From NCBI GenBank assembly GCA_937885075.1, contig CAKZYZ010000045.1:1-36962 (forward strand): a stretch of 36,962 nt of DNA, given 5' to 3'. The translations under genes and the position numbers were made by a program. The notes beneath the pieces were generated by a model. The model was not told the DNA's origin. It did no database searches and worked only from the letters and a program-made list of their open reading frames with translations. The first letter of the stretch is position 1. Every line of letters starts with the position of its first letter. This document shows, in pieces, positions 129-22,244 of the stretch. Source of the stretch: an uncultured bacterium (GTDB lineage: Bacteria > Auribacterota > Erginobacteria > Erginobacterales > Erginobacteraceae).

Positions 129-398
129 GGTTACGGCTACACCGCCATTCTGGTAGCCTGGCTGGCCCGAACCAATCCGCTGATAGTAGTCATAGTAGCC
201 TTCCTCTTCGGCGGTCTTTTAACCGGGGGAGAGATGATCCAGATTACGGTCGGGGTTCCCATCTCGGTGATTCACATCCTGGAAGGGGCTATCTTATTCT
301 TTCTCCTGGCCGGGGATCTGATGATGCAGTATCGAATGGTCTTTAAAATGGAAATAACGGAAATACCTGAAGCACCTGAAATGCCTAAAGAGGACTGA
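129..398 (+). CDS. ABC transporter permease, C-terminal fragment (BMP/Nup nucleoside-type, YufP-like), truncated by contig end
   Basis: GYGYTAILVAWLARTNPLIVV...GAILFFLLAGDLMM resembles the C-terminus of the permeases at 5390 and 10024; residues before codon 129 are adapter-derived. Confidence 0.8.
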   Translation, partial: GYGYTAILVAWLARTNPLIVVIVAFLFGGLLTGGEMIQITVGVPISVIHILEGAILFFLLAGDLMMQYRMVFKMEITEIPEAPEMPKED

Positions 399-579
399 AG
401 TGCGGGGAAAGAAGTGCCTAAAGTGCGCTAAAGTGCCTAAAGTTTATTATTTTTTCTTCAAAAAAATAATAGTTTGCAAGCATTGGAATAACGTTGAATT
501 AATTTTCAATACTGCTTCAATAAAATAATGATGGTCGTTGTTCAAAACTAAAGTAGCGAACGAAGTGAGCTAATTTATT

Positions 580-1554
580 ATGGATTTAATCACAATACTA
601 CTTCAATCCGGTTTGGCCCAGGCCGCCCCGATTATCCTGGTCGCCCTGGGGGAGGTCGTCAGCGAACGGTCCGGGGTCCTTAACCTGGGACTGGAAGGGA
701 TGATGCTGATGGGAGCACTCTTCGGCTTCATGGGGACTTACTACACAGATAGCCTCCTGGTAGGCTGCCTGGTCGGGATCTTGGCCGGGACAGCTTTCAG
801 CCTGATTCACGCGGTCCTAACTATCAGCCTGCGGGCCAACCAGATCGTGAGCGGCCTGGCCCTCACCATATTCGGCGGAGGGTTCACCGCGTTTATCGGC
901 GATAAGCCGATCACCTGGCTGGCCGACCTCTTTCACGCCATACCGGTCCAGATGACCATGGCGGTCCCCAACGACTCTTTCCGGGCCATCGCGCTGCCCG
1001 GACTTTCTCAGATCCCGGTTCTGGGGCCGATTCTCTTCAATCAGAATCTGCTGGTCTATCTCACCTACCTCCTTATTTTCGGGGTCTGGTTTCTGCTCAA
1101 CCGGACCCGCTTCGGTCTCAATGTCCGCTCGGTCGGGGAGAATCCGGCCTGCGCCGAAGTGATGGGAGTGCCGGTCAATCGAACCCGCTATATCTGCGTA
1201 CTGATCGGGGGGGCTTTCGCCGGGCTGGGCGGGGCTTATCTCTCCCTCGCCCTCTCCCCGGGCTGGAAGGAGATGATGTCAGGGGGACGGGGCTGGGTGG
1301 CGATCGCGATCGTGATCTTCGGAAACTGGAAAGCGGTCCGGTCTTCGCTGGGTGCGCTGCTCTTCGGAACCCTCTACGCTCTGGATTCCATCCTGCAGGC
1401 TCACGGGACCATGGTTCCCACCCACTTCCTGCAGATGCTCCCCTACCTGGCCACCATCGGTTTCCTGATCATCGCCCGAACCAAGGCCTTTAAAAAGTCG
1501 ATGGGAGCTCCGGAAGCTCTGACCAATCCCTATCATCGGGAATCGAGGGAATAG
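580..1554 (+). CDS. ABC transporter permease (BMP/Nup nucleoside-type, YufQ-like)
   Basis: LGEVVSERSGVLNLGLEGMMLMGA and RSVGENPACAEVMGVPVNRTRY motifs; paralogous to ORFs at 6791 and 11130. Confidence 0.92.
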   Translation: MDLITILLQSGLAQAAPIILVALGEVVSERSGVLNLGLEGMMLMGALFGFMGTYYTDSLLVGCLVGILAGTAFSLIHAVLTISLRANQIVSGLALTIFGGGFTAFIGDKPITWLADLFHAIPVQMTMAVPNDSFRAIALPGLSQIPVLGPILFNQNLLVYLTYLLIFGVWFLLNRTRFGLNVRSVGENPACAEVMGVPVNRTRYICVLIGGAFAGLGGAYLSLALSPGWKEMMSGGRGWVAIAIVIFGNWKAVRSSLGALLFGTLYALDSILQAHGTMVPTHFLQMLPYLATIGFLIIARTKAFKKSMGAPEALTNPYHRESRE

Positions 1555-1684
1555 ACTCCCCCCTGTATTGATGCCAATATCAATACAATAAAGTTTTTTT
1601 GCCGTCCCGCCTCCGGGATGGTATACTGGTTTATTCAAACTAATTTAGCATCGCAGGTGCTGCATTTTGGAGTAGCTATATATA

Positions 1685-2254
1685 ATGTCGTATCGAGTTC
1701 CAGACGGAAGATCGATGAAAGTGGTGGTATGTACTCACTGCATACTCAACCAGAACGCTAAGCTGGAAGGAATCGCCGGTTGGCCCGGGATGATCGAAGA
1801 AGTTATGGCAATTATCCGGCGGTCCGGGGCCGGGATTCTCCAGATCCCCTGTCCCGAGGTAATATATGAAGGAATCGGGCGGTTCGACAAGAGCGTCGAA
1901 CAGTACCGGTGCCCCGCCTTCCAGAGCTTGAGTAAGACAATCGCCTCGGGGGTGATCGATCAGATTGAAGATTATCTCAACTGGGGATACCAGATTCCCG
2001 CGATCCTGGCAATAGATGGGAGTCCGACCTGCGGCTTCAACCTGACCCAATCGGCGCCGGAGTGGCGAGGGCGCGTGGCGGAGATGAACTGGAAGGAGGT
2101 TCGCTACATCCCGGAACCCGGCGTCTTCATGAAGATCCTCAGTGATGAAATGAAAGAGAGATCTATAGATATCCCGATCATAGGAATCCCCGAACTCCCG
2201 GAGTTGGGGTCGATGGAAGAAGCGCTGGAGAAGATAGAAGGAGCGTTGAAATAG
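1685..2254 (+). CDS. TudS/DUF523-related putative desulfidase (CD3072-like)
   Basis: CTHCILNQNAK, QIPCPE and DGSPTCG cysteine motifs as in the TudS/DUF523 superfamily; paralogous to 13873-14448. Confidence 0.75.
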   Translation: MSYRVPDGRSMKVVVCTHCILNQNAKLEGIAGWPGMIEEVMAIIRRSGAGILQIPCPEVIYEGIGRFDKSVEQYRCPAFQSLSKTIASGVIDQIEDYLNWGYQIPAILAIDGSPTCGFNLTQSAPEWRGRVAEMNWKEVRYIPEPGVFMKILSDEMKERSIDIPIIGIPELPELGSMEEALEKIEGALK

Positions 2255-2271
2255 AGAATAGGGAGGGGGTA

Positions 2272-2348
2272 GTAATCAGTAAGCGGTAAGCGGTAAGCGG
2301 TAGGCGGTAAGCAGTAAGCGGTAAGCAGTAAGCGGTAGGCGGTGAGTA
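2272..2348 (+). repeat. Heptanucleotide tandem array, consensus GTARKCR, 11 units
   Basis: gtaatca gtaagcg gtaagcg gtaagcg gtaggcg gtaagca gtaagcg gtaagca gtaagcg gtaggcg gtgagta read directly. Confidence 0.95.
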
Positions 2349-2660
2349 GGGAGTGGAGGCGCCCGATCGTCCGACTTGTCCGACTCCCCGGATCAGTCAG
2401 ATCCGACCGATCCGTCTGATTAAAAAAAGGCCGAGGCGGGGAAGGGATCGGTAATCAGTAAGGCGGGTATCCGGGTGTTCTTTTACTGATAACTGATTAC
2501 CGTTTACTGATTACTATTCTTTTAAAAGGGGCCGAGATAGAGGGAGCTATTCACTATTCCCCATTCTCTATTCCCCAATTATAAACCAGCGGCAATGGCT
2601 GAAGATCAATCCTTAATGGAGCATTGATCCACCACCGCCGCGCAACAACAGGAGGAAAAG

Positions 2661-3686
2661 ATGAGCACTATGAGAAAGAGTTCATCCGTTGTATTGGCGC
2701 TGGCCATCCTGGTCGGCATTGGTTTGATCGTGTCCGTGATATGGCCGGGCGGAGTACAGGCGGCTGTCGCCAAGAAGTTAAAATTGGCGGCCTGCTATTC
2801 GACCCCGATCGAAGAACCCTGGCCGAACGTTATCCATCAGGCCTGCCTGAAGGTAGCCAAGGAGACCGGCATCAAGTACGATATGACCGAGCATATCGGC
2901 TACACCGACTTCGAAAAGGTCTTGCGGGAGTACTGCGAGCGCGGTTATGACATCATCACCGGAGACGCTTTCGGAAATGAAGAGGTGGTGCGTCGGGTGG
3001 CCAAGGACTACCCCAAAATCGCCTTCTGCTTCGGCTCCGGCCTGGGACCGGCGGAACCTAACTTCTCCGTCTTCGACAACTGGATCCAGCAGCCGGCTTA
3101 CCTCTGCGGCATTATCGGAGCCAAGGTTTCCAAGACCGGCATTATCGCCGCGCTGCCCCAGATGGATATCCCGGAGATCAACCGGATTCTCAACGCCTAT
3201 ATCGCGGGAGCCAAGGACACCAACCCTAAAATCAAGGTGATCGGAACCTATATCGGCAGTTTCTTCGATCCCGCCAAGAACAAGGAAGCCGGTCTGGCCC
3301 TGATTGAAGGCGGAGCGGATGTTATCTTCTCCATGGGTTACGGAGGAATCGAAGCCGCCAAAGAGAAGAAAATACTGGCCTTCGGCAACATGCAGGACCA
3401 GTGGGAACTGGCACCCGACAGCGTCATTACCGGCCCGATCTGGGATATGTATCCCACCATCAAGGCCCTGGTGGATGCCGTTCAGGGCGGATACTTCAGC
3501 GGTCGGGATTACGCGGAGTATAGCTTCATGACCAAGGGCGGTTCCTATCTCGCGCCCTACCATAACTTCGAGAAGAAGCTGCCCCAGGAAGTAAAAGATC
3601 TGGTCGCAGCGAAGACGAAAGAGATCAAGGACGGCAAACTCCGGGTCGCGATCGACGAAGCCACCGCGAAGTTTGATACGAAATAA
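2661..3686 (+). CDS. BMP-family ABC transporter substrate-binding protein
   Basis: Signal-peptide-like N-terminus; ACYSTPIEEPWPNVIHQACLKVAKE..., GYDIITGDAFGNEEVV, FGSGLGPAEPNFSVFDNWIQQPAYLCGIIGA typical of the BMP/Med family; SD AGGAGG upstream. Confidence 0.9.
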   Translation: MSTMRKSSSVVLALAILVGIGLIVSVIWPGGVQAAVAKKLKLAACYSTPIEEPWPNVIHQACLKVAKETGIKYDMTEHIGYTDFEKVLREYCERGYDIITGDAFGNEEVVRRVAKDYPKIAFCFGSGLGPAEPNFSVFDNWIQQPAYLCGIIGAKVSKTGIIAALPQMDIPEINRILNAYIAGAKDTNPKIKVIGTYIGSFFDPAKNKEAGLALIEGGADVIFSMGYGGIEAAKEKKILAFGNMQDQWELAPDSVITGPIWDMYPTIKALVDAVQGGYFSGRDYAEYSFMTKGGSYLAPYHNFEKKLPQEVKDLVAAKTKEIKDGKLRVAIDEATAKFDTK

Positions 3687-3721
3687 CGCGGGGGGCTTTC
3701 TTGTAACAAAGCATGTGATTA

Positions 3722-3802
3722 ACCACGAAGGACACGAAGACCACGAAGAGAAGATATTCTCTTTTTTCAGTCTCCCTTCGTGTTCTTCGTGTCCTTCGTG
3801 GT
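3722..3802. repeat. Inverted repeat built of CACGAAGR words
   Basis: 27-nt arms 3722-3748 and 3776-3802, one mismatch: accacgaaggacacgaagaccacgaag / cttcgtgttcttcgtgtccttcgtggt. Confidence 0.95.
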
Positions 3803-3819
3803 TTAATTAAACGTGGATT

Positions 3820-5406
3820 ATGTCTGAGAATAGTACATCCAATATAACACCCCATCCTTTAGTCGAGATGCGTGACATCTGTAAGCGGTTTCTGGATGTC
3901 AAGGCCGAGGACCATGTCGATCTCTCGGTCTACCCCCGGGAGATTGTCGGGCTGCTGGGAGAGAACGGAGCGGGCAAGACCACGTTGATGAAGATCCTCT
4001 TCGGCTTATATCAGCCGGACTCGGGGGCAATCCTGGTGAACGGAGAAGAAGTTACCTTTCACTCTCCGCTTGATACCATTCAGCATGGAATCGGGATGGT
4101 TCACCAGCATTTTAACCTGGTGGACCACCATTCGGTGATCGAGAATATCATCATCGGCGACAAGAAGAGCAGCCCGCGGGGGATCGTTGACTACCGGGGC
4201 GCGAGAAAACGAATCCGGGAACTCAGTGAACGGTACGGCCTGGAGGTGGATCCGGACTCGGAAGTCTGGCAGCTTTCGGTGGGAGAGAAACAGCGGGTAG
4301 AGATCCTCAAAGCCCTCTACCGGGATGTTAAGCTTCTGATCCTCGATGAACCGACCGCGGTTCTGACCCCGCAGGAGGTGGTGAACCTCTTCATCACCCT
4401 CAAACAGCTGGTCAAGCATGGCCTCTCCATTGTCTTTATCTCCCATAAACTGAACGAGGTGATGGAGGTGACCGACCGCTCGGTCATACTCCGCCGGGGG
4501 AGAAGAATCGGAGAACAGAAGACCTCGGAGACAACCAAAGAAAAACTGGCCGCCATGATGGTCGGAACCGACGAATCATTCGTAGTCCCCAAAAAAGCCG
4601 TCTCATTCCAGGGCGAACTGTTAAAAATCGACTCCCTCACCGTGAAAAACGATATGGGGTTGGTGGCGGTCAACAATATCAGCCTGACCCTGAATAAGGG
4701 ATCCACCCTCGGCATAGCCGGGGTCTCCGGAAACGGCCAGCGGGAACTGGCCGAGGCGCTGGGTGGGGTGCGACGCGCGGAGAGCGGCCGGATCATCATG
4801 GAAGGGAAAGATATTACCAACCTGCCGCCGGCGCGGCTGGTCGAGGCAAAGATGGCCCGGATTCCTGAGGACCGCTTCCGGCTCGGCCTGGTGATGGACT
4901 TCAATATCGCCGAGAACCTGGTCATGGAGAAGCACCGGCAGCCTCCCTTTTCCCGCGGTATATTCCTCAGTTGGCCGAAGATAATGGAGAGCGCTCGGGG
5001 ACTGATTGAAAAATTTGATATCAGGACACCCGGTGCCAGGACCACCACCCATTCCCTCTCCGGTGGAAATATTCAAAAGGTCCTGCTGGCCCGGGAGTTA
5101 AGCATGGACCCCACCGTTGTTCTGGCGGCCCAGCCCACCCGCGGCCTCGATATCGGAGCGGTCAGCTTTGTTCATCGGTTGATGGAAGATGAACGGTCGA
5201 ATGGAAAAGGAATTTTATTCATCTCCGAGGATCTGGATGAACTGCTGGCGGTCAGCGATATCATCGCGGTGATGTACGAAGGCGAAATCATGGGGATCAT
5301 CCCGGCCGCGGAGGCGACCAAAGAAAAACTGGGCCGTCTGATGATGGGGATCAAAGATTCTTCCCCGGCGGAGAAGACGAGGGAGGTTAGTGCCTATGCG
5401 GATTAA
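3820..5406 (+). CDS. Nucleoside-type ABC transporter ATP-binding protein (two ABC domains, YufO-like)
   Basis: Walker A GENGAGKTT, signature LSVGEKQRVEI, Walker B LLILDEPTAVLTPQE; second domain LSGGNIQKVLLARE, AAQPTRGLDIGA. Confidence 0.95.
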   Translation: MSENSTSNITPHPLVEMRDICKRFLDVKAEDHVDLSVYPREIVGLLGENGAGKTTLMKILFGLYQPDSGAILVNGEEVTFHSPLDTIQHGIGMVHQHFNLVDHHSVIENIIIGDKKSSPRGIVDYRGARKRIRELSERYGLEVDPDSEVWQLSVGEKQRVEILKALYRDVKLLILDEPTAVLTPQEVVNLFITLKQLVKHGLSIVFISHKLNEVMEVTDRSVILRRGRRIGEQKTSETTKEKLAAMMVGTDESFVVPKKAVSFQGELLKIDSLTVKNDMGLVAVNNISLTLNKGSTLGIAGVSGNGQRELAEALGGVRRAESGRIIMEGKDITNLPPARLVEAKMARIPEDRFRLGLVMDFNIAENLVMEKHRQPPFSRGIFLSWPKIMESARGLIEKFDIRTPGARTTTHSLSGGNIQKVLLARELSMDPTVVLAAQPTRGLDIGAVSFVHRLMEDERSNGKGILFISEDLDELLAVSDIIAVMYEGEIMGIIPAAEATKEKLGRLMMGIKDSSPAEKTREVSAYAD

Positions 5407-6454
5407 ACTCGTCAAACGGCCTCCCCTCCCATTGTGGAAACGGGCCCTGCTGCCGGTCTGGGCGATACTGCTGGCTTTCCTGATCAGCGGCATCTTTATC
5501 GCTCTGACCGGAACCAATGTTCTCGAAGCATTCTGGCTGATCATTACCGGTTCGCTCGGATCCCGTTTCGCCTTTCTGGAGACCCTGATCAAGATGACAC
5601 CGATGTGCCTGACCGGGCTGGCGGTGACCATCGCCTTCCGGGCCAAGTTCTGGAATATCGGGGCCGAAGGTCAGCTTTACATGGGGGCGATGGCGGCCGC
5701 CTGGATCGGAATAATCCCGCTCAGTTCATCTCCCTTCATTCAGATCCCGGTTATCATCATGGCCGGATTTGTCGCCGGGGGTCTGCTGGCCATCTTTCCT
5801 GCCTGGCTCAAGGTTAAATTCAAGGTGGATGATGTTGTGACCACCCTGATGCTGAACTACGTGGTGATCTTCCTGATGAGGGCGCTCCTCGATACCGTCT
5901 GGCGGGATCCCATCTCGGGTTGGCCGCATTCACCCTCCATCCTTCCTGCCGCCATCTTCCCCCGGCTTCTGCCCCCGGGGAGATTACACATCGGATTTCT
6001 TATCGCCCTCGGAGCCGCCGTGCTCTGCTTTATCCTGCTCAAATACACCGGACTCGGCTATCGGCTCCGGGCGGTGGGCTATAATCCCCAGGCTTCCCGC
6101 TACGGCGGGATCAATGTAAAACGGACCCTGCTGGCGACCGCCTTTATCAGCGGCGGTCTGGCCGGCCTCGCCGGAGTGGGCGAGGTCTGCGGGATGCAGT
6201 TCTACCTGATCGACGGCATCTCCAGCGGTTACGGTTACTACGGAGTGGCCATCGCCATGCTGGCCAACCTCCAGCCGCTCGGAGTAATCCTGGCCTCGTT
6301 CTTCTTTGCCGTCATCTTCACCGGTTCCCAGACCATGAGCCGTTATACCGTGGTACCGGTATATATCAGCGATATTATGCAGGGCCTGACCCTGATCACC
6401 ATGCTGATGGTTCTTCTGCTTAACCGGTATAAAATTAAGATAAGTCGGAAGTAA
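5390..6454 (+). CDS. ABC transporter permease (YufP-like)
   Basis: GLAVTIAFRAKFWNIGAEGQLYMGAMAAAWIG; LRAVGYNPQASRYGGINVKR; overlaps the 3' end of the ATPase gene. Confidence 0.93.
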   Translation: MPMRIKLVKRPPLPLWKRALLPVWAILLAFLISGIFIALTGTNVLEAFWLIITGSLGSRFAFLETLIKMTPMCLTGLAVTIAFRAKFWNIGAEGQLYMGAMAAAWIGIIPLSSSPFIQIPVIIMAGFVAGGLLAIFPAWLKVKFKVDDVVTTLMLNYVVIFLMRALLDTVWRDPISGWPHSPSILPAAIFPRLLPPGRLHIGFLIALGAAVLCFILLKYTGLGYRLRAVGYNPQASRYGGINVKRTLLATAFISGGLAGLAGVGEVCGMQFYLIDGISSGYGYYGVAIAMLANLQPLGVILASFFFAVIFTGSQTMSRYTVVPVYISDIMQGLTLITMLMVLLLNRYKIKISRK

Positions 6455-6539
6455 GTTCGTGCTAACAAAATGTTGAGATATAGAAGTCAGTAGAAAAGCA
6501 GGTAATCAGTAGACAAGCAGGTAATCAGTAGACAAGCAG

Positions 6540-6574
6540 GTAATCAGTAACCAGTTATCAGTAATCAGTAAGCC
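6540..6574 (+). repeat. GTAATCA-type heptamer array, + orientation (gtaatca gtaacca gttatca gtaatca gtaagcc)
   Basis: Read directly; preceded by ~20-nt direct repeats agacaagcaggtaatcagt from about 6487. Confidence 0.9.
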
Positions 6575-6600
6575 TTCACCAGGTAACTGGGCGAGGCGCA

Positions 6601-6761
6601 CCGATTACCGATCACCGATTACCGATCACTGATCACCGATTACCGATAACCGATTACCGATCACTGATAACCGATCACCGATCACTGATAACCGATCACC
6701 GAACACTGATCACCGATTACCGATAACCGATCACCGATCACCGATTACCGATTACCGATTA
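6601..6761 (-). repeat. Heptanucleotide tandem array CYGATNA, 23 units (reverse complement of the GTAATCR word)
   Basis: ccgatta ccgatca ccgatta ccgatca ctgatca ... ccgatta ccgatta ccgatta; 23 x 7 = 161 nt with one ccgaaca variant. Confidence 0.97.
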
Positions 6762-6790
6762 CTATCTTTTCGCCGGAGGCGCTAAATACT

Positions 6791-7729
6791 ATGGACCAAA
6801 TCCTGACCTATACCTTTATCGCCGGCCTGCTGGCCGCGACCATTCGGATGTCGATCCCGCTCATCTTCGGTACCCTGGGAGAGCTTTTTAATGAACGGTC
6901 CGGGGTATTAAACCTGGGCATTGAGGGAATCATGACACTGGGCGCCATGGCGGCCTTTGTCGGAACCTATCTGACCGGTTCCCTTCTGGTCGGGGTGATC
7001 GCGGCGATTGTCTGCGGGATGATCCTGAGCATTCTGATGGCGTTCCTGACAGTCACACTCGGTCTAAGCCAGCATGTATCCGGGATCGGGGTAACATTCT
7101 TCGGCACCGGGGTCAGTTACTATATCTATCGGCTGATCGTCGGCACCCCAAAAGTACCCCCCATAGTTGATCCGTTCCAGGTTATTCGGATCCCGATTCT
7201 GAGCGACATACCGTTGATAGGCGAGGCCTTTTTCAGCCAATATCTCCTGGTCTACATCGCGTTCCTCTCTATCCCCGCGGCTTACTGGGTACTCTTCAAG
7301 ACCAGCCTGGGGCTGAAGATCAGGACCTGCGGAGAGAACCCGGCCGCGGCCGATACCATGGGAGTAAACGTCAGCGGCACCCGATACCTCAGTCTGATAA
7401 TAGGGGGAGGCCTGATCGGCCTGGGAGGAGCTTTTCTCACTATCGCCCAGAACAACATGTTTACCTTCGGAACCGTCGCCGGGAGAGGGTGGGTCTGCAT
7501 CGCTCTGATCGTCTTCGCCAACTGGAAACCCGGCAAGGTCCTCCTGGGGGCGCTGCTCTTCTCGCTGATCGACGCCTTCCAGCTCCGCCTCCCTATGCTG
7601 GGGCTGCATATACCCTATCAGATCTTCCTGATGCTCCCCTACCTGATTACGATCGTGATGCTGGTCCTGGTGGCTCGCAAGGCCAGTTACCCGGCCGCGA
7701 TGCTCAAGTCCTACTCCCGAGAGGAATAG
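6791..7729 (+). CDS. ABC transporter permease (YufQ-like)
   Basis: FGTLGELFNERSGVLNLGIEGIMTLGA; RTCGENPAAADTMGVNVSGTRYLSLIIGGGLIGLGGAFL. Confidence 0.93.
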   Translation: MDQILTYTFIAGLLAATIRMSIPLIFGTLGELFNERSGVLNLGIEGIMTLGAMAAFVGTYLTGSLLVGVIAAIVCGMILSILMAFLTVTLGLSQHVSGIGVTFFGTGVSYYIYRLIVGTPKVPPIVDPFQVIRIPILSDIPLIGEAFFSQYLLVYIAFLSIPAAYWVLFKTSLGLKIRTCGENPAAADTMGVNVSGTRYLSLIIGGGLIGLGGAFLTIAQNNMFTFGTVAGRGWVCIALIVFANWKPGKVLLGALLFSLIDAFQLRLPMLGLHIPYQIFLMLPYLITIVMLVLVARKASYPAAMLKSYSREE

Positions 7730-8112
7730 AACATAGCGCCTGCGGCGCTACTAATGAAGAAATCCGAATGAAATCCAAATGACAAATGATTAAATTCCTA
7801 ATTCCCAGCTCTACTTCGCGTCCCGAACAGCCCGTGCGAGTTTCGCCATTTCTCACTCATGGCTTCGTCATTTGATTCGTCATTCCCCATTCCCCAAATT
7901 TGCTCCGCAGGCGCTAATTAACTAAAAATATTATCTTGACCACTGGATCCCAGGGGAGATATACTCTACAGACCATCGTATTATATTTGAATGTGATAGA
8001 ACTGACCATACAGACCGCCGGATACCTTATCCCACCCGGGAATAGCGGCGATTGAGATAATATATTTTAATAAACCTTAGAGATACCGTTTTTGATTGAG
8101 GTATAATTACTC

Positions 8113-9696
8113 GTGAATAATCAGATTTCTAAATCAACTGATTCCCGTCCGGCTCCGGAGACGGGAGAGACACTCCTGGAGATGCGGGGGATCAGCAAGC
8201 TCTTTTCCGGGGGGGTTCTGGCCAATGATCAGGTAGATTTTGAGATCAAGGCCGGGGAAATCCACGCCCTGCTGGGAGAAAACGGGGCGGGGAAAACCAC
8301 CCTGATGAATATTCTCTACGGGCTCTACCAGCCGACGGCCGGGGAAATCTATATCCGGGGGGAGCAAGTTCACTTCAAATCTCCCCAGGATGCCTTTGGA
8401 GCGGGGATCGGCATGGTCCATCAGAACCGAAAACTCATCCCCGCCCATACCGTTATAGAAAATATAATGCTGGGGCACCCGGCCACCCGGATGATTATAA
8501 ACGAGAAAAAAGCGAAAGAAGAAGTAAGCCGGATCGAGGAAAGATTCGGCTTCGATATCGACCTGGATGCCCGGGTCTGGCAGCTGGACGCGGGTGAAGC
8601 CCAGATAGTAGAAATCATCAAGGCTCTCTATCTGGGGGCCCGAATCCTGATTCTGGATGAACCGACTTCAGTCCTGACCCCTCCGGAGACAGAAAAGCTG
8701 ATGTATTCTCTCAAGGATATGGTGGACAGCGGCCTGGCGGTTATCCCATTCATCACGCACAAGCTTCCCATTGTACTTGAGATAAGCGACCGGATAACCA
8801 TCCTTCGAAATGGCAGGGTGGTCGATCATATTAAAACCAAAGATGCCACCAAGACCAGTCTGGCCCAGGGTATGGTCGGAAAAGAGATCCTTTTCGACCT
8901 TAATCGACCCGAGGTAAGCCCGGGAGATGAGATTCTTAAAGTAGAGCACCTCTCCGCGCTCAACGACAAGGGATTTCCGGCGGTGACCGACCTCTCCCTC
9001 TCCGTCCGGGAAGGGGAAATTTTCGCGCTGGCGGGCGTGGCCGGAAACGGGCAGCATGAACTGACCGAACTTCTGATGGGGCTCCGCAAACCTACCGGAG
9101 GGAAGATTATTTATCAGGAAAAAGATATTACCCGGAGGACGATAAAGCAGAGATGGAAGGCTGGGATAGGTTTTGTCCCGGCCGATCGCGCGGGCATGGG
9201 ATCGGTGGCTGAATTCTCCTTATGCGATAATATGGCGATGAACTTTTATTTCCTCGATGAATTCTCATCTTTCGGAATACTGGACAATGAGAAGATCTGC
9301 CGATGGACGGGGCAAGCCATTGAAGAATTTAACGTCAAGGCACCGGGGGTCCATGCTCTGGCCCGGCAACTCTCCGGCGGAAATCTGCAGAAGATGATCC
9401 TGGCCCGGGTGCTCACGGCCAATCCCCGCCTTTTGATTGTCAATAGCCCAACTCAGGGCCTCGATGTGGGGGCCGCGGTCTTCGTCCAGAACCGATTGCT
9501 GGATATGAAGAAGCATGGAACCGGAATCATTCTTGTCTCGGAAGACCTTGATGAAGTCCTGGCCCTGGGAGACCGGATCGCTCCGATTTATGAGGGGAAA
9601 CTGATGGGAGTTTTCTCCCGGGAGAATATAGACAAAGCAAAAGTAGGGCTGCTGATGGCCGGGCTGGAAGAAGAAGAGGAAGAGGAAGAAGGGTAA
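8113..9696 (+). CDS. Nucleoside-type ABC transporter ATP-binding protein (two ABC domains, YufO-like)
   Basis: GENGAGKTTLMNILYGLYQPTAG; LILDEPTSVLTPPE; LSGGNLQKMILARV; NSPTQGLDVGA; start is TTG/GTG-ambiguous (ORF begins GTGAATAATC). Confidence 0.93.
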   Translation: MNNQISKSTDSRPAPETGETLLEMRGISKLFSGGVLANDQVDFEIKAGEIHALLGENGAGKTTLMNILYGLYQPTAGEIYIRGEQVHFKSPQDAFGAGIGMVHQNRKLIPAHTVIENIMLGHPATRMIINEKKAKEEVSRIEERFGFDIDLDARVWQLDAGEAQIVEIIKALYLGARILILDEPTSVLTPPETEKLMYSLKDMVDSGLAVIPFITHKLPIVLEISDRITILRNGRVVDHIKTKDATKTSLAQGMVGKEILFDLNRPEVSPGDEILKVEHLSALNDKGFPAVTDLSLSVREGEIFALAGVAGNGQHELTELLMGLRKPTGGKIIYQEKDITRRTIKQRWKAGIGFVPADRAGMGSVAEFSLCDNMAMNFYFLDEFSSFGILDNEKICRWTGQAIEEFNVKAPGVHALARQLSGGNLQKMILARVLTANPRLLIVNSPTQGLDVGAAVFVQNRLLDMKKHGTGIILVSEDLDEVLALGDRIAPIYEGKLMGVFSRENIDKAKVGLLMAGLEEEEEEEEG

Positions 9697-13453: not shown

Positions 13454-13469
13454 TGGTTCTTTAAACAAC

Positions 13470-13621
13470 CGCGGCAAGTTTTCATCGGGACCGGAACGCG
13501 GGAGCGAACCGGACCTGATGAAAACTTATCCGCGATCAGCAACACCGGGAGTGGCAGCTCCCCACGGCAGGGTCCGTTGGAGAGATCTCCGCGACCTGCC
13601 CCGGGGAGTTCCACTCTTTTT
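13470..13621 (+). terminator. Tandem long hairpins, second followed by a T-run (structured 3' region of the BMP gene, terminator-like)
   Basis: Hairpin 1 13470-13534 (cgcgg.aagttttcatc.gggaccgg / ccggacct.gatgaaaactt.ccgcg); hairpin 2 13549-13616 (gagtgg.agctcccc.gcagggtc / gacctgc.ggggagtt.ccactc) then TTTTT. Confidence 0.7.
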
Positions 13622-13872
13622 CGCTTAAAATTCATCCCCGAGCAACTTGCTGCTTCGGAATTTCCCCGAAATACTTCGGGATCCCGGATTGTTTAATTGA
13701 TATTACCGGGACAATGAATCTGCCACAAAGGCACAAAGACACTAAGAAAAACTTAAGAAAGAATAAATAAAGGTTGTTATTGCATCTTTAAATCTTTTCT
13801 TTGTGTCTTAGTGTCTTCGTGGCAAAAAAAGTTGCGGAGCTATGTTCTTGATATATTAAGGAGAACAAATCC

Positions 13873-14448
13873 ATGTTAGAGCGAGACAAAAGAGCAAAAA
13901 AAGTGGCAATAGTGGCGCATTGCCTCCTTAACCAGAACGCGAAAGTAAACGGTTTCGCCTTCTTCCCGGCCATGGTAGGAGAAATTATCGATCTCTTGCG
14001 GGCTCACGACTACGGAATTCTACAGCTCCCCTGCCCGGAGACTATCTACGCCGGAACCCACCGATGGTGGTTCGTCAGAGAACAGTATTTCACCCCGGGG
14101 TTTACTCATCTGGCGAAAAATCTGCTTGGTCCTATTATCGATCAGATAAAGATATACCAGGAGGATGGATTCAAGGTTATCCTGATCGGCCTGGATGGAA
14201 GCCCCTCCTGCGGACTTAGATGGTCGGGAAGTAATCCGGAATGGGGAGGGAGACCGGAGATTCCGGCGGGTGATTATCCGGTGATAGAGGCTAAAGGCGC
14301 GTTTATGTCGACCCTGGTTGATATGATCAAGGAGAATAATCTCTCGATGCCCCCCATGATCGGAGCCGGTTTTGACATGCCTGATTTTTCAGTGGAAGAT
14401 GTAGTAAAGGAACTGGATGAATTTTTAACTGAATGTGATAAGCTATAA
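13873..14448 (+). CDS. TudS/DUF523-related putative desulfidase (second copy)
   Basis: AHCLLNQNAKVNG, QLPCPETIYAG, LDGSPSCGLRWSGSNPEWGGRPE. Confidence 0.75.
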   Translation: MLERDKRAKKVAIVAHCLLNQNAKVNGFAFFPAMVGEIIDLLRAHDYGILQLPCPETIYAGTHRWWFVREQYFTPGFTHLAKNLLGPIIDQIKIYQEDGFKVILIGLDGSPSCGLRWSGSNPEWGGRPEIPAGDYPVIEAKGAFMSTLVDMIKENNLSMPPMIGAGFDMPDFSVEDVVKELDEFLTECDKL

Positions 14449-14957: not shown

Positions 14958-16205
14958 ATGATAAATATTGATCAAGCAAATGAACAGGCGCTGAAAAAAC
15001 TGCTGGAAGCGCGCCCGTTCTGGGTTGATATACAGCCGGCGATCGAATGTGTCCCGGGGATGAAGGATAACCTGATCCTTCACGCCGGACCCCCGGTCAC
15101 CTGGGATAGGATGTGCGGTCCCCAGCGCGGCGCCACAATCGGAGCCCTGATCTATGAGGGAAAGGCCAAATCCGTGGAAGAGGCGCAGGAACTGGCCGCT
15201 TCCGGTGATATCGAATATGATCCCTGCCATCACCACGATACCGTAGGCCCGATGGCCGGTATTGTCTGCCCCTCGATGCCGATGATCGTAACCGAGGACG
15301 AGGTTACCGGCAAACGGGCTTACCAGAGCCTCAATGAGGGTATCGGGAAAGTGCTCCGGATGGGAGCTTACGATGATGAGGTGATTGAACGTTTGAAGTG
15401 GATGGAAGATGTGCTGGGACCGGTCTATCAGAAAGCGATCCGGAAAGCCGGTAAGATCGACCTCAAGAATATCATGGCTCAGGCTATCCAGATGGGTGAT
15501 GAACTCCATAACCGGAGCCGGGCGGCCTCTTACATTCTCTTCACCAAGACCGCCCCCTATATCATGGAGACCCTGGATCAGAATAAACTCCCGGAGACCA
15601 TTGAGGCCCTGAAGTTTATGGAGGCCAATATCCACACCTTCTTAGGCTTCGCTATGACAAGCGCCAAGGTCAGCCTTATGGCGGCGGAGAATGTTGAAGG
15701 AAGCACCATGGTCACAGTGATGGCCCGGAACGGTACCGACTGGGGTATTCAGGTCAGCGGTCTTGGCAAAGAGTGGTTCACCTGCGAATCACCGGTTCCG
15801 GATGTACTCCTCTTCCCCGGATTCACCAAGGATGACGTCGGCAGGGATATCGGAGACAGCGCCATCATGGAGACCTACGGTATCGGCGGATCGGCGCTGG
15901 CCGCGTCCCCCGCCATCGTCCTCTTCGTCGGCGGCACTTACGATCTGGCCCTCTCCAAGACCATGGATATGTACGAGATCACCATCGGAGAGAATAATAT
16001 CTACCAGATCCCATCGATGGACTTCCGGGGAACCCCGACCGGGATCGACATCAAGAAGGTAGTGGAGAAGAACCTTCCGCCCTTCATTGATACCGGCGTA
16101 GCCCACAAGGATCCGGGAGTAGGACAGGTCGGAGCGGGCTTATGCGACGCCCCGATGAAGGTATTCACCGACGCGATCAAGGCGTTTGCCAAGAAATACG
16201 CCTGA
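14958..16205 (+). CDS. DUF1116 family protein (AllG/YlbE/YahG-like)
   Basis: RPFWVDIQPAIECVPGMKDNLILHAGPPVTWDRMCGPQRGATIGALIYEG... PCHHHDTVGPMAGIVCPSMP... ELHNRSRAASYILF... MARNGTDWGIQVSGLGKEWF; SD GGGAGGAG. Confidence 0.85.
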   Translation: MINIDQANEQALKKLLEARPFWVDIQPAIECVPGMKDNLILHAGPPVTWDRMCGPQRGATIGALIYEGKAKSVEEAQELAASGDIEYDPCHHHDTVGPMAGIVCPSMPMIVTEDEVTGKRAYQSLNEGIGKVLRMGAYDDEVIERLKWMEDVLGPVYQKAIRKAGKIDLKNIMAQAIQMGDELHNRSRAASYILFTKTAPYIMETLDQNKLPETIEALKFMEANIHTFLGFAMTSAKVSLMAAENVEGSTMVTVMARNGTDWGIQVSGLGKEWFTCESPVPDVLLFPGFTKDDVGRDIGDSAIMETYGIGGSALAASPAIVLFVGGTYDLALSKTMDMYEITIGENNIYQIPSMDFRGTPTGIDIKKVVEKNLPPFIDTGVAHKDPGVGQVGAGLCDAPMKVFTDAIKAFAKKYA

Positions 16206-16399
16206 TTAACCAGTAAACCACGAAGAGCACGAAGTAAATAATGTGTTGGAGTAATGGAGTGGTGGAGTATCGGGAGCCGGGCATCAATGTTCCCCATTAC
16301 TCCAACACTCCATCACTCCAGTTTACCCTACGTATGTTTTAGCCACATTTTAATTCTTCGTACTGCAATAGATTGTTTAACAAAAAAAGGAGGAAAGTA

Positions 16400-18058
16400 A
16401 TGAATATGATTGAATTATTAAGTAAGGCCAAATGGTACGACCTAACCCAGGCGCTGAGCATCTTCACGCCGCCCTGGCCGGGGGAGTTGCCGCTCCAGAT
16501 CCAGTTCTTCAAGAGAGTAACCGGATCGTTCATCGGCGGGGCAGGCGCCAACGGGCAGCTTATCGAGTGGTCTAACAATACCGGAACCCACCTGGTCGGT
16601 CCCACGGCTTTCCATTCCGGCCTCCGGTCGATCGCCGATATTCCATTGGAAGACATCTGCGGAGAGGGAGTGATCGTCGATATCTCCAAGGATGTCTCGG
16701 ACTACAGCCTCTACACCCCGGAGATGATCGAGAGCAAGGTAAAGGTCAAGGAAGGCGACATCCTGATCATCAACACCGGCTATCACAAGTACGGATATGA
16801 CCAGCCGGATGTCAAGAATAAGAAAGCCCAGGGGGGCATAGATAGCAAGGAGTTCAGTTATCTCGTCCGCCATCCGGGACCGGCGCCCGGGTTCTTCGAG
16901 TGGGCGCTGAAGAAGAAGATCAAGGTCATCGGTGTCGACTGTGGCTGCGCCGAGCACCCGATGAACACCAACATCCGCTATATGCACGGACGGGATTTTG
17001 AAAAGGCGGAAAAGAAACTCATCAAGGATTACGGCAAGACCTGGGATGAGATGTTCCCCCAGGATAAATACTACAAGCTGACCCACAGCAAGATGCCGAA
17101 AGCGGGATTGCTGCTGGCCGAGTCGCTCGGTGGAGATATAAAGAAACTGAAGAACCAGCGGGCCTGGATCATGATTCACCCGATTCCTTTCTGCGAGGTT
17201 GAATCGGCCTGGTCCCGGGTGGTCGCGGTGCAGCCGCCGAAGGGGATGACCAATTCTGCCTTCTTCTCCCGGATGAAACGGAACAAGATGTACGATATGT
17301 CGATCCCATTCAGTGTCCAGACTCCGCAGTGGGCCAACTATATCCCGCTGATCGTCCAGTACACCAAACGGGTCGGCGGCCAGTATTTCGGCATGGGACG
17401 CAACAACGCCCAATGTAAGGCCAGTTTCCACCTGAGCTGCCATATGGACGGAGAGAAACATTTCCATATGGGCGGCCGGACAATCGGCGAAACTCCGATG
17501 GATTTCTGGATCGGACAGGGCGCGATCGCCGATATCTCCAGCATGGTCAGCGATACCAGTGTCTATACCCCGGAGATGATCGAGAAGGTGGTTGAGGTAA
17601 AAAAAGGCGACATCCTGATCATCAAGACCGGTTATTACAAATACGGCTGGAAGAGTGAGGAGTCTGACGAGTTCCGTTACATGATCCGTCACCCGGGCCC
17701 GTCGCCGGACTTCGCGGAATGGTGCCTGAAGAAAGAGATCAAGTGGCTGGGCGTGGACTGTGTGGCCATGGAACATCCCATGAACACCATTCAGCGCGAC
17801 TGGCATCCCAAGACCTTCGAGGAAGCCGACCGGAAGTTGAAGGAAGCTTTCGGCAAGGACTGGGATGAGATGTACCCGCTGGACAAGTTCTACCAGGACA
17901 TGCATCTGAACCTCTTCCCGAAGGGGATCATCCATGCCGAGAACCTCGGCAAGGACCTGGGGGAATTGAAGAGCGGCCGCTATTTCCTAGGCTGCTTCAT
18001 CCAGAAGGGGATGGAGCTAGCCTCCTGCTGGGCCCGTTTTGTCGCCTGGAAGAAATAG
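16400..18058 (+). CDS. Tandem-duplicated cyclase family protein (kynurenine formamidase/isatin hydrolase-like metal hydrolase fold)
   Basis: Two homologous halves (KWYDLTQALSIFTPPWP.../KMYDMSIPFSVQTPQWANY...) each with VYTPEMIE..V.VK.GDILII.TGY.KYG and RHPGP.P.F.EW.LKK.IK..GVDC..EHPMNT. Start chosen at 16400 from SD AGGAGG (ORF track starts at 16373). Confidence 0.88.
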   Translation: MNMIELLSKAKWYDLTQALSIFTPPWPGELPLQIQFFKRVTGSFIGGAGANGQLIEWSNNTGTHLVGPTAFHSGLRSIADIPLEDICGEGVIVDISKDVSDYSLYTPEMIESKVKVKEGDILIINTGYHKYGYDQPDVKNKKAQGGIDSKEFSYLVRHPGPAPGFFEWALKKKIKVIGVDCGCAEHPMNTNIRYMHGRDFEKAEKKLIKDYGKTWDEMFPQDKYYKLTHSKMPKAGLLLAESLGGDIKKLKNQRAWIMIHPIPFCEVESAWSRVVAVQPPKGMTNSAFFSRMKRNKMYDMSIPFSVQTPQWANYIPLIVQYTKRVGGQYFGMGRNNAQCKASFHLSCHMDGEKHFHMGGRTIGETPMDFWIGQGAIADISSMVSDTSVYTPEMIEKVVEVKKGDILIIKTGYYKYGWKSEESDEFRYMIRHPGPSPDFAEWCLKKEIKWLGVDCVAMEHPMNTIQRDWHPKTFEEADRKLKEAFGKDWDEMYPLDKFYQDMHLNLFPKGIIHAENLGKDLGELKSGRYFLGCFIQKGMELASCWARFVAWKK

Positions 18059-18061
18059 CAT

Positions 18062-18276: not shown

Positions 18277-18468
18277 TTCAGCATGGGGCCAAGATTGGGG
18301 GAGCAATTAGTGTAAATTCGTGTCCCCGAAAAATGACTCCGTCATCTCGGGGTAAAAATTAGTGGACTGTGAAGCCGCCGAACCAAGGCGAAACAATCAG
18401 TGAAATCCGTGTAATCCGTGGACAAAAAAGAGGCCGAGGCGGGGGGCATAAAAATTAGGAGGTCAGAA

Positions 18469-19359
18469 ATGGCAATAGCGCATGAGTTTGAATATTTCAA
18501 GCCGGAGAGCCTTAAAGAGGCGATAAATCTGGCCGCGAAATTTGGAGAGAAAGGACGCCCCCTGGCCGGAGGAACCGACCTGGTGGTCAAGATCAACGAC
18601 GAGATCGAGTTTCCCGACGCCGTCATCGACCTGAAAGGGATCGATGAACTGAAAAAACTCGAACTAAAAGATGGGAAACTCTTTATCGGACCCCTGGTGA
18701 CATTCACCGAACTGATCAACTCCCCGGTGGTCCGGGATAAATTCCCTCTCCTTCGGGAAGCCTCCGGGACAGTTGCCTCCAGCGGAGTCCGCAATAGGGC
18801 CACCCTGGTGGGGAATATCTGTTCCGCGGTACCGTCTCTGGACAGCGGCACACCGCTCCTGGTCTATCAGGCGGAAGTCCTGGTCAAAAGCAAGGACGGG
18901 GAGAGAACCATCCCCATCGGGGAATGGTTTACCGGCCCCAAGAAAAACGCCCTGAAACCGGGCGAGATTGTAGTAGGCGTCACCATCGATGAGATCACCG
19001 GCAAACAGGGCGGCTGCTATGTAAAACTCGGCCGCTACCGGGGAGAAGACCTGGCCCAGGTTGGAATCGGAATCCTCTCCCTGGAAAATAATGAATATCG
19101 AATCGCCTTCTGCGCTGTGGGGCCGGTCGCTGCCCGGGCGGAGAAGATAGAGAACCTCCTGAACGGGAAAGAGCTGACCGATGAAATAATCGGAGAAGCC
19201 AAAAAACTCGTCCCGGAAGAAATATCCCCCATCGATGATATCAGGGCCACCGGAGAGTACCGGATGCACATGGCCGAGGTGATGCTGGTCCGGGGATTAA
19301 AAGAAGCTACGGCCAGACTAAACGGAGAAGGGACCGAATACGGAACCAGTGTTATTTAA
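18469..19359 (+). CDS. Xanthine dehydrogenase-family FAD-binding subunit (CoxM/XdhB-like)
   Basis: FEYFKPESLKEAINLAAKFGEKGRPLAGGTDLVVKI; ASGTVASSGVRNRATLVGNICSAVPSLDSGTPLL; SD AGGAGG before ATG 18469. Confidence 0.92.
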   Translation: MAIAHEFEYFKPESLKEAINLAAKFGEKGRPLAGGTDLVVKINDEIEFPDAVIDLKGIDELKKLELKDGKLFIGPLVTFTELINSPVVRDKFPLLREASGTVASSGVRNRATLVGNICSAVPSLDSGTPLLVYQAEVLVKSKDGERTIPIGEWFTGPKKNALKPGEIVVGVTIDEITGKQGGCYVKLGRYRGEDLAQVGIGILSLENNEYRIAFCAVGPVAARAEKIENLLNGKELTDEIIGEAKKLVPEEISPIDDIRATGEYRMHMAEVMLVRGLKEATARLNGEGTEYGTSVI

Positions 19360-19417
19360 ACCAAGTTTAATTTAACCACGAAGTACATTCATGGTTCCAT
19401 TTATTTTAGGAGACGCG

Positions 19418-19882
19418 ATGAAAAAAACAATAACACTCACAATTAACGGAGAACTACGCTCCGTGGATGTTGAACCAAACGATATCCTGATATATGTATT
19501 ACGGGATAAGCTGGGTGTCAAAAGCCCCAAGATCGGCTGTGAAAGAGGTGACTGCGGCACCTGTACCATACTTCTCAACGGCGAACCGGTCCGGAGTTGC
19601 CTTATCCTGGCGATCGAGATGGATGGGCAGGAAATAACCACCGTGGAAGGACTCTCCGAAGATGGACTTACTCCTCTTCAGGAAAAATTCGTCGAGCACA
19701 ACTCCTTTCAATGTGGATTTTGCGCGCCGGGTATGACCCTGACCGCGACTAAATTTTTAGAAAAGAATCCTCACCCCACCCGGGAGGAAGTCCAGGAAGC
19801 TATCGCCGGGAATCTCTGCCGGTGTACGGGCTATAAACAGATCATTGAAGCAATTCTGGACGTTTCAAATAAATTAAATTAA
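19418..19882 (+). CDS. Xanthine dehydrogenase-family 2Fe-2S subunit (CoxS/XdhC-like)
   Basis: GCERGDCGTCTILLNGEPVRSC and QCGFCAPGM...GNLCRCTGYKQI cysteine motifs; SD AGGAGA before ATG 19418. Confidence 0.95.
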   Translation: MKKTITLTINGELRSVDVEPNDILIYVLRDKLGVKSPKIGCERGDCGTCTILLNGEPVRSCLILAIEMDGQEITTVEGLSEDGLTPLQEKFVEHNSFQCGFCAPGMTLTATKFLEKNPHPTREEVQEAIAGNLCRCTGYKQIIEAILDVSNKLN

Positions 19883-19892
19883 GGGGGAGATC

Positions 19893-22244
19893 ATGGAAGA
19901 ATTAAAATTTGTCGGTAAATCGTTGCCCCGGATTGACTCCAAGGAGAAACTCACCGGGGCGGCACAATATGTTGACGATCTGGAATTCGGGCCCAATCTG
20001 CTCTACGCGGAAATTGTGGAAAGTACCGAAGCGTTTGCCAGAGTAACTAAAGTCGACACCTCGGAAGCGGAAAAAATTACCGGAGTAGTCAAAGTGATCA
20101 CCGGAAAAGATTTTCCCTATAAATTCGGGCTCTATATGAAAGACCGTTTCATCCTGGCCCAGGATGTAGTTCGATTCGTCGGGGAACAGGTGGCGGCGGT
20201 TATCGCCCGGGATCCAAAGATCGCCCGGCGGGCGGCGAAGTTGGTTAAAGTCGAATATGAGCCCTTTACTCCCGTCTTCGATCAGATGGAGGCTATTAAA
20301 AAAGATCCCATCCTGATCCATCCCGACCTGGGGGAATACCCTCATGTTCCCTGGTTTTATCCGAAAGCGGGAACTAATATCGCTCACTGGAAAAAAGTAC
20401 GGGTCGGCGATATGGAGAAGGGTTTTGAAGAAGCGGACGTGATCGTGGAGGATACCTACTTCGTCCCCCGTTACGCTCACTGCTGCATGGAGACCCATAA
20501 CGCGGTTGGTCTATTGGACTACTCGGGACGATTGACGGTATGGTCCTCATCCCAGTCACCCCATACCCAGCGGAACCTCTTTGCTGAGGCTCTGTCCCCG
20601 CTTGGTTTTACCCACAAGGATGTCCGGGTAATCACACCTTACATCGGAGGCGGATTCGGGGGGAAAGCCGGCGTAACCATGGAGATACTGGCCGCCGCTT
20701 TTGCCACCAAGGTAAAAGGAAACCCGGTTAAAGTCCGCTGGACCCGGGCGCAGGAGTTCTATAACACCTATATGCGCCAGGCCGTGGTCTCTAAATTAAA
20801 ACTGGGAGCCAAGAAGGACGGGACCATTGTCGCTTTTGAAGGGACTAACTACTGGGATGCCGGTCCCTACGTTGAATACGGCGCTAATGTCGTCAACGCC
20901 TCCGGTATCTCCGCGGCCGGCCCTTACCGGATTCCCAATGTCAAGATCGACTCCCTCTGCATCTACACCAACCTGCCGGCAGCCGGTCCTTACCGGGGAT
21001 TCGGCTATTCGGAGATGATGTTTGGTGTGGAAAGCCAGATGGAGAGAATGGCCAAAAAACTGGGCATGAATTCGGTCGAGTTCCGGAAGAAGAACGCCTT
21101 CAAGGGAGGGGATATCCTGGTTTACGGAGCGCCGATCAATGATAACGGATATAATGAGTGTATCGATAAGGTGGCTCAAGCCATTGATTTTGGGAAGAAG
21201 GAAGTCTCGGACGATCCCAACAAGGTCATTGGCAAAGGAATCGCCGCCGCCTGGAAGGGTCCGGCCATGCCTCCCAATGCCTCATCCGCGGCTTTCATCA
21301 AGTTTAGCGAGGATGGAAGTATAAATATCCTGGTCTCCGGCATCGATATGGGACAGGGATATCTTACCGTCATGGCCCAGATCGCGGCGGAGATCCTCAC
21401 CGTTCCCCTCGATAAGATTAGGACGGAAAACCCGGATACCGACCGCAACCCTTACGAGTGGCAGACAGTAGCCAGTCACGTGACCTGGTCCTGCGGGAAC
21501 GCCGTGAAACGGGCGGCGATGAATGCCCGGGAACAGATATTTGATACCGTGCACGCCGCCTATCTCTTCGATAAATCCACTCTCTACCTGGAAGATGAGT
21601 GCGTGAAATGCACTCTGAAACCGGATTTCGCCCTGCCCTTAAAAGACTTCGTCATCGACGGAATCATGGTCAAAGACGGAACTTTCCGGGGCGGGCCCAT
21701 CATGGGTAAGGGAATGTTCATGCCGGAGTTCTCCTCCACCAAGGGTGATCCCGAGACCGGGATAGGCGGGAAGCCCAACGTTCATTATACCGTGGGAGCC
21801 GGCGGGGTGGTCATTGAGATAGATAAAGAGACCGGAAAAGTAAAGGTTTTAAAGACCGCCCAGGCTTACGATATCGGCAAGGCCATCAACCCCTCCCTGG
21901 TAGAGGGTCAGGTCTATGGAGGATTCATGCAGGGATTGGCTACCGCGCTCTTTGAGGATATGCGGTTCGGCGAAGACGGGTCGATTCTTAACCCCAACTT
22001 CACTGACTACAAAATCCCCACCGCGCTGGATATTCCCGATGAGATGATCCCCATCATAGTGGAAGTCCCGCAGAACGATGGCCCCTACGGAGCCCGCGGG
22101 GTCGGGGAGCACGTCATGATTCCCGTCATGCCATCCATAGCCAACGCGGTGGAAGACGCTCTGGGAATCAGAATCAAATCGATGCCCATCACCGCCGAAA
22201 AGATCGCCCTGGCGATCAAAGCCGGCCTGAAAGAAGTGGACTGA
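19893..22244 (+). CDS. Xanthine dehydrogenase-family molybdopterin-binding catalytic subunit
   Basis: GGGFGGKAG, AAGPYRGFGYSEMMFGVE, GIDMGQGYLTVMAQIAAEIL, GPYGARGVGEHVMIPVMPSIANAVEDALGIRIKSMPITAEKI. Confidence 0.95.
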   Translation: MEELKFVGKSLPRIDSKEKLTGAAQYVDDLEFGPNLLYAEIVESTEAFARVTKVDTSEAEKITGVVKVITGKDFPYKFGLYMKDRFILAQDVVRFVGEQVAAVIARDPKIARRAAKLVKVEYEPFTPVFDQMEAIKKDPILIHPDLGEYPHVPWFYPKAGTNIAHWKKVRVGDMEKGFEEADVIVEDTYFVPRYAHCCMETHNAVGLLDYSGRLTVWSSSQSPHTQRNLFAEALSPLGFTHKDVRVITPYIGGGFGGKAGVTMEILAAAFATKVKGNPVKVRWTRAQEFYNTYMRQAVVSKLKLGAKKDGTIVAFEGTNYWDAGPYVEYGANVVNASGISAAGPYRIPNVKIDSLCIYTNLPAAGPYRGFGYSEMMFGVESQMERMAKKLGMNSVEFRKKNAFKGGDILVYGAPINDNGYNECIDKVAQAIDFGKKEVSDDPNKVIGKGIAAAWKGPAMPPNASSAAFIKFSEDGSINILVSGIDMGQGYLTVMAQIAAEILTVPLDKIRTENPDTDRNPYEWQTVASHVTWSCGNAVKRAAMNAREQIFDTVHAAYLFDKSTLYLEDECVKCTLKPDFALPLKDFVIDGIMVKDGTFRGGPIMGKGMFMPEFSSTKGDPETGIGGKPNVHYTVGAGGVVIEIDKETGKVKVLKTAQAYDIGKAINPSLVEGQVYGGFMQGLATALFEDMRFGEDGSILNPNFTDYKIPTALDIPDEMIPIIVEVPQNDGPYGARGVGEHVMIPVMPSIANAVEDALGIRIKSMPITAEKIALAIKAGLKEVD

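Follow-up and report, generated by a model that had tools for sequence, protein, structure and literature searches.

The stretch of DNA analysed here, a 36,962-nucleotide contig of an uncultured bacterium of the phylum Auribacterota (contig CAKZYZ010000045.1 of assembly GCA_937885075.1; hereafter the window), encodes between positions 14958 and 22244 the protein AllG, a two-domain cyclase and a three-subunit molybdenum hydroxylase (Mo-hydroxylase), and we consider that this core on balance probably represents part of an oxidative route for the degradation of pyrimidines. The window is one contig (C45) of a 4.4 Mb genome that is 87% complete in 434 contigs.

A gene cluster shared by distantly related bacteria

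The linkage of AllG, the cyclase and the Mo-hydroxylase is more than a chance association, because the same order of genes recurs in other phyla, and the core is conserved across distantly related bacteria, usually together with FdrA (AllF). The loci compared are a sample drawn mostly from two phyla; the gene content of GC-rich loci was read by tblastn, and because antisense frames contaminated our all-against-all clustering of open reading frames (ORFs), we used from it just those clusters in which a protein could be recognised. Within Auribacterota, AllG was identified in 12 of 44 genomes, and the cyclase type of the window accompanied it in all 12, versus one of the 32 other genomes of the phylum (Fisher p = 6e-10, with lineages that are not independent of one another). 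The Anaerolineae yielded AllG in 139 of 346 sampled genomes, and we read 60 of their AllG loci, picked for their flanking sequence. Most of these are clusters of the same type: FdrA was present at 55, the cyclase at 52 and a Mo-hydroxylase subunit at 45, the cyclase lay no more than 3 kb downstream of AllG on the same strand at 47, and the common order was FdrA, AllG, cyclase, xdhB, xdhC, xdhA. A Spirochaetaceae locus reads FdrA, AllG, cyclase, CoA-transferase and amidase. The original prediction, made from the window alone, had suggested a survey for neighbourhoods combining DUF1116, cyclase and Mo-hydroxylase; the conserved co-occurrence it anticipated was found, with FdrA as a further regular member.

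The AllG gene of the window (DUF1116; 14958-16205, plus strand; PF06545, 1.8e-86) encodes a subunit of an AllFGH-type carbamoyltransferase. Its product is 92% identical to AllG of Candidatus Euphemobacter frigidus (Candidatus Auribacterota, PVC group), whose AllG locus matches genome G008, and G008 and the window's genome are placed in one family. In Euphemobacter, genes for FdrA, AllH and an NCS1 nucleobase permease lie directly upstream of the AllG-double cyclase-Mo-hydroxylase core. The absence of FdrA and AllH, which the original prediction had taken to set the system apart, is true of the window; however, their genes are adjacent on another contig (C190) of the same genome, which therefore encodes all three subunits AllF, AllG and AllH, and as both usually adjoin AllG at other loci, their absence is no distinguishing trait. 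Carbamate kinase, above its cut-off, is encoded on C70, adjoining a YgeW-like carbamoyltransferase gene. Identities to the E. coli proteins are 44% for AllG, 38% for FdrA, 26% over 125 residues for AllH and 39% for carbamate kinase, and in a tree of AllG sequences the E. coli protein branches off outside the group linked to the cyclase, although branches are long and support is weak. The genome encodes another, more distant AllG, 43% identical to that of the window, on the short contig C385 (L003, 6098-7384); its gene adjoins a masked stretch and a gene resembling adenylosuccinate synthetase, and neither FdrA nor cyclase is on that contig. The expectation that the route would be distinct from canonical allantoin degradation was borne out, in that none of 68 loci carries allC or allE of E. 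coli and two carry allD.

The cyclase gene (16373-18058, plus strand, with a likely ATG start at 16400) matches PF04199 twice, and its product is a proposed barbiturase. Domain 1 spans residues 1-290 and domain 2 residues 291-561. In our alignments, domain 2 reads HLSCHMDGEKH and keeps the metal/catalytic residues H353, H357, D359 and H363, while domain 1 reads NTGTHLVGPTA and has lost the first histidine, the aspartate and the last histidine, and with them the metal motif. All 15 of the other double cyclases that we read, from Auribacterota and Anaerolineae, have GTHLVG in domain 1 and retain the H, H, D and H of domain 2. The natural reading of these sequences is that the double cyclase would be a fused dimer of an active and a pseudo subunit; in isatin hydrolase, Mn is bound via HxG[T/A]HxDxPxH and the partner subunit lends residues to the pocket (PMC6117287). 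An AlphaFold model of the double cyclase based on five sequences was of too low confidence (mean predicted local distance difference test, pLDDT, 45.7) to bear on the fused-dimer reading. An uncharacterised GNAT-like protein, the two tested members of which had no Pfam or NCBIfam match, recurrently adjoins the cyclase (L056, L069, L081, L093, L009 and L036), often accompanied by a thiolase and a Zn-ribbon/OB-like protein.

The Mo-hydroxylase of the window is complete, with plus-strand genes for its flavin adenine dinucleotide (FAD) subunit (18418-19359; PF00941, PF03450), its 2Fe-2S subunit (19391-19882; PF01799, PF00111) and its molybdopterin subunit (19893-22244; PF02738, PF20256, PF01315), the last of which is proposed to belong to a uracil dehydrogenase and scores under every NCBIfam equivalog cut-off. 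The three subunits that the original prediction ascribed to a xanthine-dehydrogenase-type enzyme are present, but none of the named xanthine dehydrogenase families is matched: the NCBIfam cut-offs were missed (XdhA, 513 vs. 780; PucD, 428 vs. 784; xdhB, 297 vs. 850 bits).

A proposed route from uracil

In the proposed route, pyrimidine nucleosides or bases would be imported by BMP-type ATP-binding cassette (ABC) transporters, or by NCS1 or NCS2 permeases in other lineages, uridine would be split by uridine phosphorylase, and TudS may bring thiouracil derivatives into uracil. The three-subunit Mo-hydroxylase would convert uracil to barbiturate, which the cyclase-fold hydrolase, as a non-classical barbiturase, would open to ureidomalonate (HOOC-CH2-CO-NH-CO-NH2). 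The AllFGH complex of E. coli phosphorolyses oxalurate to oxamate and carbamoyl phosphate (PMC11326118), and since ureidomalonate is oxalurate with one additional CH2, an AllFGH-type enzyme could phosphorolyse it; AllG, together with AllF and AllH from the other contig, would in the same manner produce malonamate and carbamoyl phosphate. Carbamate kinase would then use carbamoyl phosphate to make ATP, with release of CO2 and ammonia, and in relatives a malonamidase-like amidase, followed by MdcA, a MatB-like ligase or a CoA-transferase, would lead from malonamate to a malonyl thioester. We infer every substrate and reaction in this scheme from which genes are present and from what is known of the chemistry of their families. 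What we observed directly is the set of genes with its conserved linkage, the fact that the genome also encodes AllF, AllH and carbamate kinase, and the state of the motif in the two cyclase domains. As an outline, the order of import, hydroxylation, ring opening and carbamoyl processing put forward in the original prediction is supported.

We judge the odds to be slightly better than even that these loci reflect a widespread, energy-conserving oxidative catabolism of uracil, which would combine a Mo-hydroxylase, a cyclase-fold barbiturase (in some lineages a fused active/pseudo pair), AllFGH-type phosphorolysis of ureidomalonate and formation of ATP via carbamoyl phosphate. No earlier description of a barbiturase together with a carbamoyltransferase, a cyclase, malonamate or carbamoyl phosphate was found in the open-access literature. 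If correct, the route would assign a pyrimidine-degrading, possibly ATP-yielding role to common, mostly uncultured bacteria such as the AllG-bearing Anaerolineae. Barbiturase would then be represented by two enzyme families, AllFGH, a complex identified only recently, would have two substrates, and the Mo-hydroxylase genes would be candidates for those of uracil dehydrogenase.

Neighbouring genes and the nature of the substrate

The genes that recur near the core point to pyrimidine as the input and malonate as the output, because those for MdcA, MatB-like ligases, malonamidase-like amidases, uridine phosphorylase and NCS2 permeases are repeatedly among them; where the original prediction left the substrate unknown, these neighbours suggest uracil and malonate. 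MdcA (malonate decarboxylase alpha) is encoded directly after AllG in L035, L037, L040, L041 and L042 (best member, 802.6 vs. an equivalog cut-off of 789.15), and all eight genomes of the phylum that have it are AllG-positive. AMP-forming, MatB-like ligases at six Anaerolineae loci form one group; malonyl-CoA synthase was the best NCBIfam model for all five tested, and both of those compared with solved structures scored higher against malonyl-CoA synthetase than against oxalate-CoA ligase (386 vs. 224 and 402 vs. 294 bits). Ten loci from Anaerolineae and one from a spirochaete encode amidases, and the closest solved structure to both members tested is that of malonamidase E2; CoA-transferases are encoded at nine loci. 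L035-L037 encode uridine phosphorylase close to the cyclase (in L036, 297.5 vs. a cut-off of 280.3), and the window's own genome encodes one 5 kb from a single-domain cyclase on C57. Eight of the 11 Chloroflexota loci with the Mo-hydroxylase most like that of the window carry an NCS2 permease, and the best equivalog for the NCS2 permeases is uracil permease. There were allB-like matches at 15 loci, of dihydropyrimidinase type; for the three tested, dihydropyrimidinase is the best model, with scores above its cut-off.

The classical barbiturase/cyanuric acid hydrolase family (PF09663) was absent from 73 of 74 AllG-positive genomes, including that of the window; the lone positive genome is a spirochaete with FdrA-AllG-cyclase (G044, C400:7839-8912; L112). 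Just upstream of FdrA-AllG-MdcA in L040 (2-3325; also in L039) are methylmalonyl-CoA mutase-like parts and an aldehyde ferredoxin oxidoreductase-like gene, which could serve degradation of thymine through methylmalonate.

Several observations weigh against the proposed route. At least two distant types of Mo-hydroxylase occur at AllG loci, and substrates may therefore differ between loci. Single and double cyclases stand together in three loci (L079, L103 and L107); the two forms may have different substrates or represent two ring-opening activities, and hence the double form may act on another ring. The malonate genes are present at a minority of loci, the MatB-like ligases score 505-554 bits, under the cut-off of 558, the NCS2 permeases score 211-218, under the uracil permease cut-off of 477, and the CaiB-type CoA-transferases could equally handle oxalate. 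The window's genome, at its 87% completeness, has neither MdcA nor a strong MatB match and a partial amidase match alone.

Transporter and TudS-like genes upstream of the core

The co-directional run of genes listed in the original prediction was recovered in full between 129 and 22244 by Pfam, NCBIfam and open frames, all on the plus strand. Its first part (129-14448) is a transporter array made up of the tail of one system (system 3) and two complete BMP-type systems, ordered BMP1-ATP1-permA-permB (system 1) and ATP2-permA-permB-BMP2 (system 2). Of system 3 there remain the C-terminal end of a BMP-type ABC permease A (129-398), an open frame without Pfam match that was assigned by reading and by its position before permB1, and permease B (580-1554; PF02653, 2.7e-39). 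System 1 comprises a BMP/PnrA-like substrate-binding protein (2661-3686; PF02608, 2.3e-36), a double ABC ATPase (3820-5406; PF00005 in two stretches), permease A (5390-6454; PF02653, 1.7e-40) and permease B (6791-7729; PF02653, 1.7e-30). System 2 likewise has a double ABC ATPase (8113-9696; PF00005 in two stretches), permease A (10024-11130; PF02653, 1.8e-31), permease B (11130-12023; PF02653, 1.8e-33) and a BMP/PnrA-like substrate-binding protein (12251-13453; PF02608, 5.6e-29). The nearest solved chain to BMP1 is AtzT (6pi5), an atrazine-binding protein, with the 3s99 BMP protein also close. Vitamin B6 transport was rejected: the best NCBIfam matches of the transporter are "putative B6 ABC transporter" models (ABC_B6), far under their cut-offs (102.5 vs. 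400, 470 vs. 670 and 229.5 vs. 465 bits).

Two genes for TudS-related putative desulfidases of the CD3072 family lie in the array, one after the system 3 tail (1685-2254; NF045597, 140.0 bits vs. a cut-off of 130; Cys, CPE and SPTC motifs) and one after the complete system 2 (13873-14448; 133.3 bits against the same cut-off). TudS enzymes convert 4-thiouracil derivatives to uracil derivatives (PMC10611767), an activity that would suit a uracil route. The window proteins share the Cys ligand and the CPE and SP(S/T)C motifs of the thiouracil/4-thio-UMP desulfidase (PMC10611767); they differ in belonging to the CD3072 subfamily and in having, as aligned by eye, Lys and Leu/Val at the positions of Arg17 and Tyr18, and their desulfidase role is putative. 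As TudS was found at none of the 66 other compared loci, the two genes are better seen as a local addition outside the conserved cluster, and the original suggestion of a thiolated main substrate is not upheld.

An uptake role for the BMP-type systems in the route is plausible because such genes are co-located with AllFG-cyclase at other loci, flanking it in L035 and L037 and lying in part beside it in L052, L074, L076, L080, L085, L110 and L111, and with allFGHK in nitrifier genomes: a Nitrososphaerales metagenome-assembled genome has allFGHK and bmpA-nupABC on one contig, and in comammox allFGHK adjoins a triuret cluster with bmpA-nupABC (PMC12625717). These co-locations, together with the contiguity and shared direction of the BMP/TudS genes and the core, argue against the array being an independent uptake or salvage array that merely abuts the core. 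We regard that alternative as unlikely, if still a serious one; in its favour, the nearest relative has an NCS1 permease, AllH and FdrA at that place, TudS was at none of the 66 other loci, and the closest transporter models are those for vitamin B6, at scores far under cut-off. We see the BMP and TudS genes as variable additions to the core.

Alternative substrates

Hydantoins and purines are less probable substrates than a pyrimidine. In the first case, a five-membered hydantoin-type ring would be oxidised to parabanate, opened by the cyclase to oxalurate and split by AllFGH to oxamate and carbamoyl phosphate. This has the attraction that the specificity of AllFGH for oxalurate is already known (PMC11326118), and it could draw on the D-hydantoinase/dihydropyrimidinase-type proteins at 15 loci and on the CaiB CoA-transferases, which likewise resemble oxalate enzymes; it leaves MdcA, the MatB-like ligases that favour malonyl-CoA, the malonamidase-like amidases and uridine phosphorylase unexplained, and we consider it improbable. 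Least probable of all is a purine route, with a Mo-hydroxylase acting on hypoxanthine, xanthine or urate, a cyclase that opens a purine-derived ring and a ureido group passed to AllFGH, for although the Mo-hydroxylase architecture is xanthine dehydrogenase-like, BMP1 is closest to AtzT and 3s99 among solved chains, and the genome encodes SsnA-like and D-hydantoinase proteins and a further cyclase (C427) as well as carbamate kinase and the YgeW-like protein (C70), reminiscent of a reductive urate cluster (PMC12507026), these urate-type genes are on other contigs, the Mo-hydroxylase subunits are far under the xanthine dehydrogenase cut-offs, allC and allE are lacking at the 68 loci and the malonate and uridine neighbours are left unaccounted for. 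The C427 cluster (L021, genome G000, 1682-14252), a separate one that looks like a reductive urate/purine cluster, holds several amidohydrolases, the further cyclase and RidA-like, MobA-like, dihydropyrimidinase and SsnA-like genes. Neither an Rfam nor a tRNA scan found a match in the window, and a purine riboswitch thus lends the case no support.

Contig ends

Positions 1-128 of the window, read directly, are a T-rich stretch followed by an Illumina P7 adapter with index, a non-genomic assembly artefact; genomic DNA starts at 129, and the assembly end therefore cuts the first permease gene. The adapter, translated as SSRRRHTRYISVTGVQTCALPI or RRVGKECRSRWSPYH, recurs at the ends of several of this genome's contigs (window, 61-128; L015, 17377-17691; L022, 1-60; L021, about 15220-15303), where such contamination gives rise to false ORFs. 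A repeated PRAGAWIET reading frame in L006 (280-891; = L043) is typical of a mistranslated CRISPR array.

Comparison with known systems

Pyrimidines are known to be degraded by reductive, oxidative, Rut and URC pathways (PMC12507026), among which the route proposed here would count as a version of the oxidative pathway. The reductive uric acid pathway of anaerobes (XdhD, SsnA, HyuA, YgeW and YqeA; PMC12507026) has in common with it the logic of a Mo-hydroxylase, ring opening and carbamoyl phosphate/carbamate kinase, but employs the YgeW transcarbamylase in place of AllFGH, and genes similar to its own are on C427 and C70 of the window's genome. AllFGH and AllK of allantoin degradation in E. 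coli have homologs in the window's genome (AllG, FdrA, AllH and carbamate kinase); in the loci compared, however, AllG is joined to a cyclase and a Mo-hydroxylase rather than to allC and allE. With isatin hydrolase and bacterial kynurenine formamidase (PF04199), the cyclase shares the four metal/catalytic positions of HxGTHxDxPxH in domain 2, whereas it differs in its fusion to a motif-less domain, in the GLQC/GLAS isatin motif, which was not seen in its sequence, and in the partner genes of its type, which relate to pyrimidine/malonate and not to tryptophan. A parallel in terms of intermediates is the oxidative pathway of Rhodococcus (uracil/thymine dehydrogenase, barbiturase and ureidomalonase), which likewise passes through uracil, barbiturate, ureidomalonate and malonate; in the route proposed here, the ring would instead be opened by a metal-dependent cyclase-fold hydrolase rather than by an enzyme of the cyanuric acid hydrolase/barbiturase fold, and ureidomalonate would be phosphorolysed by AllFGH rather than hydrolysed by ureidomalonase.

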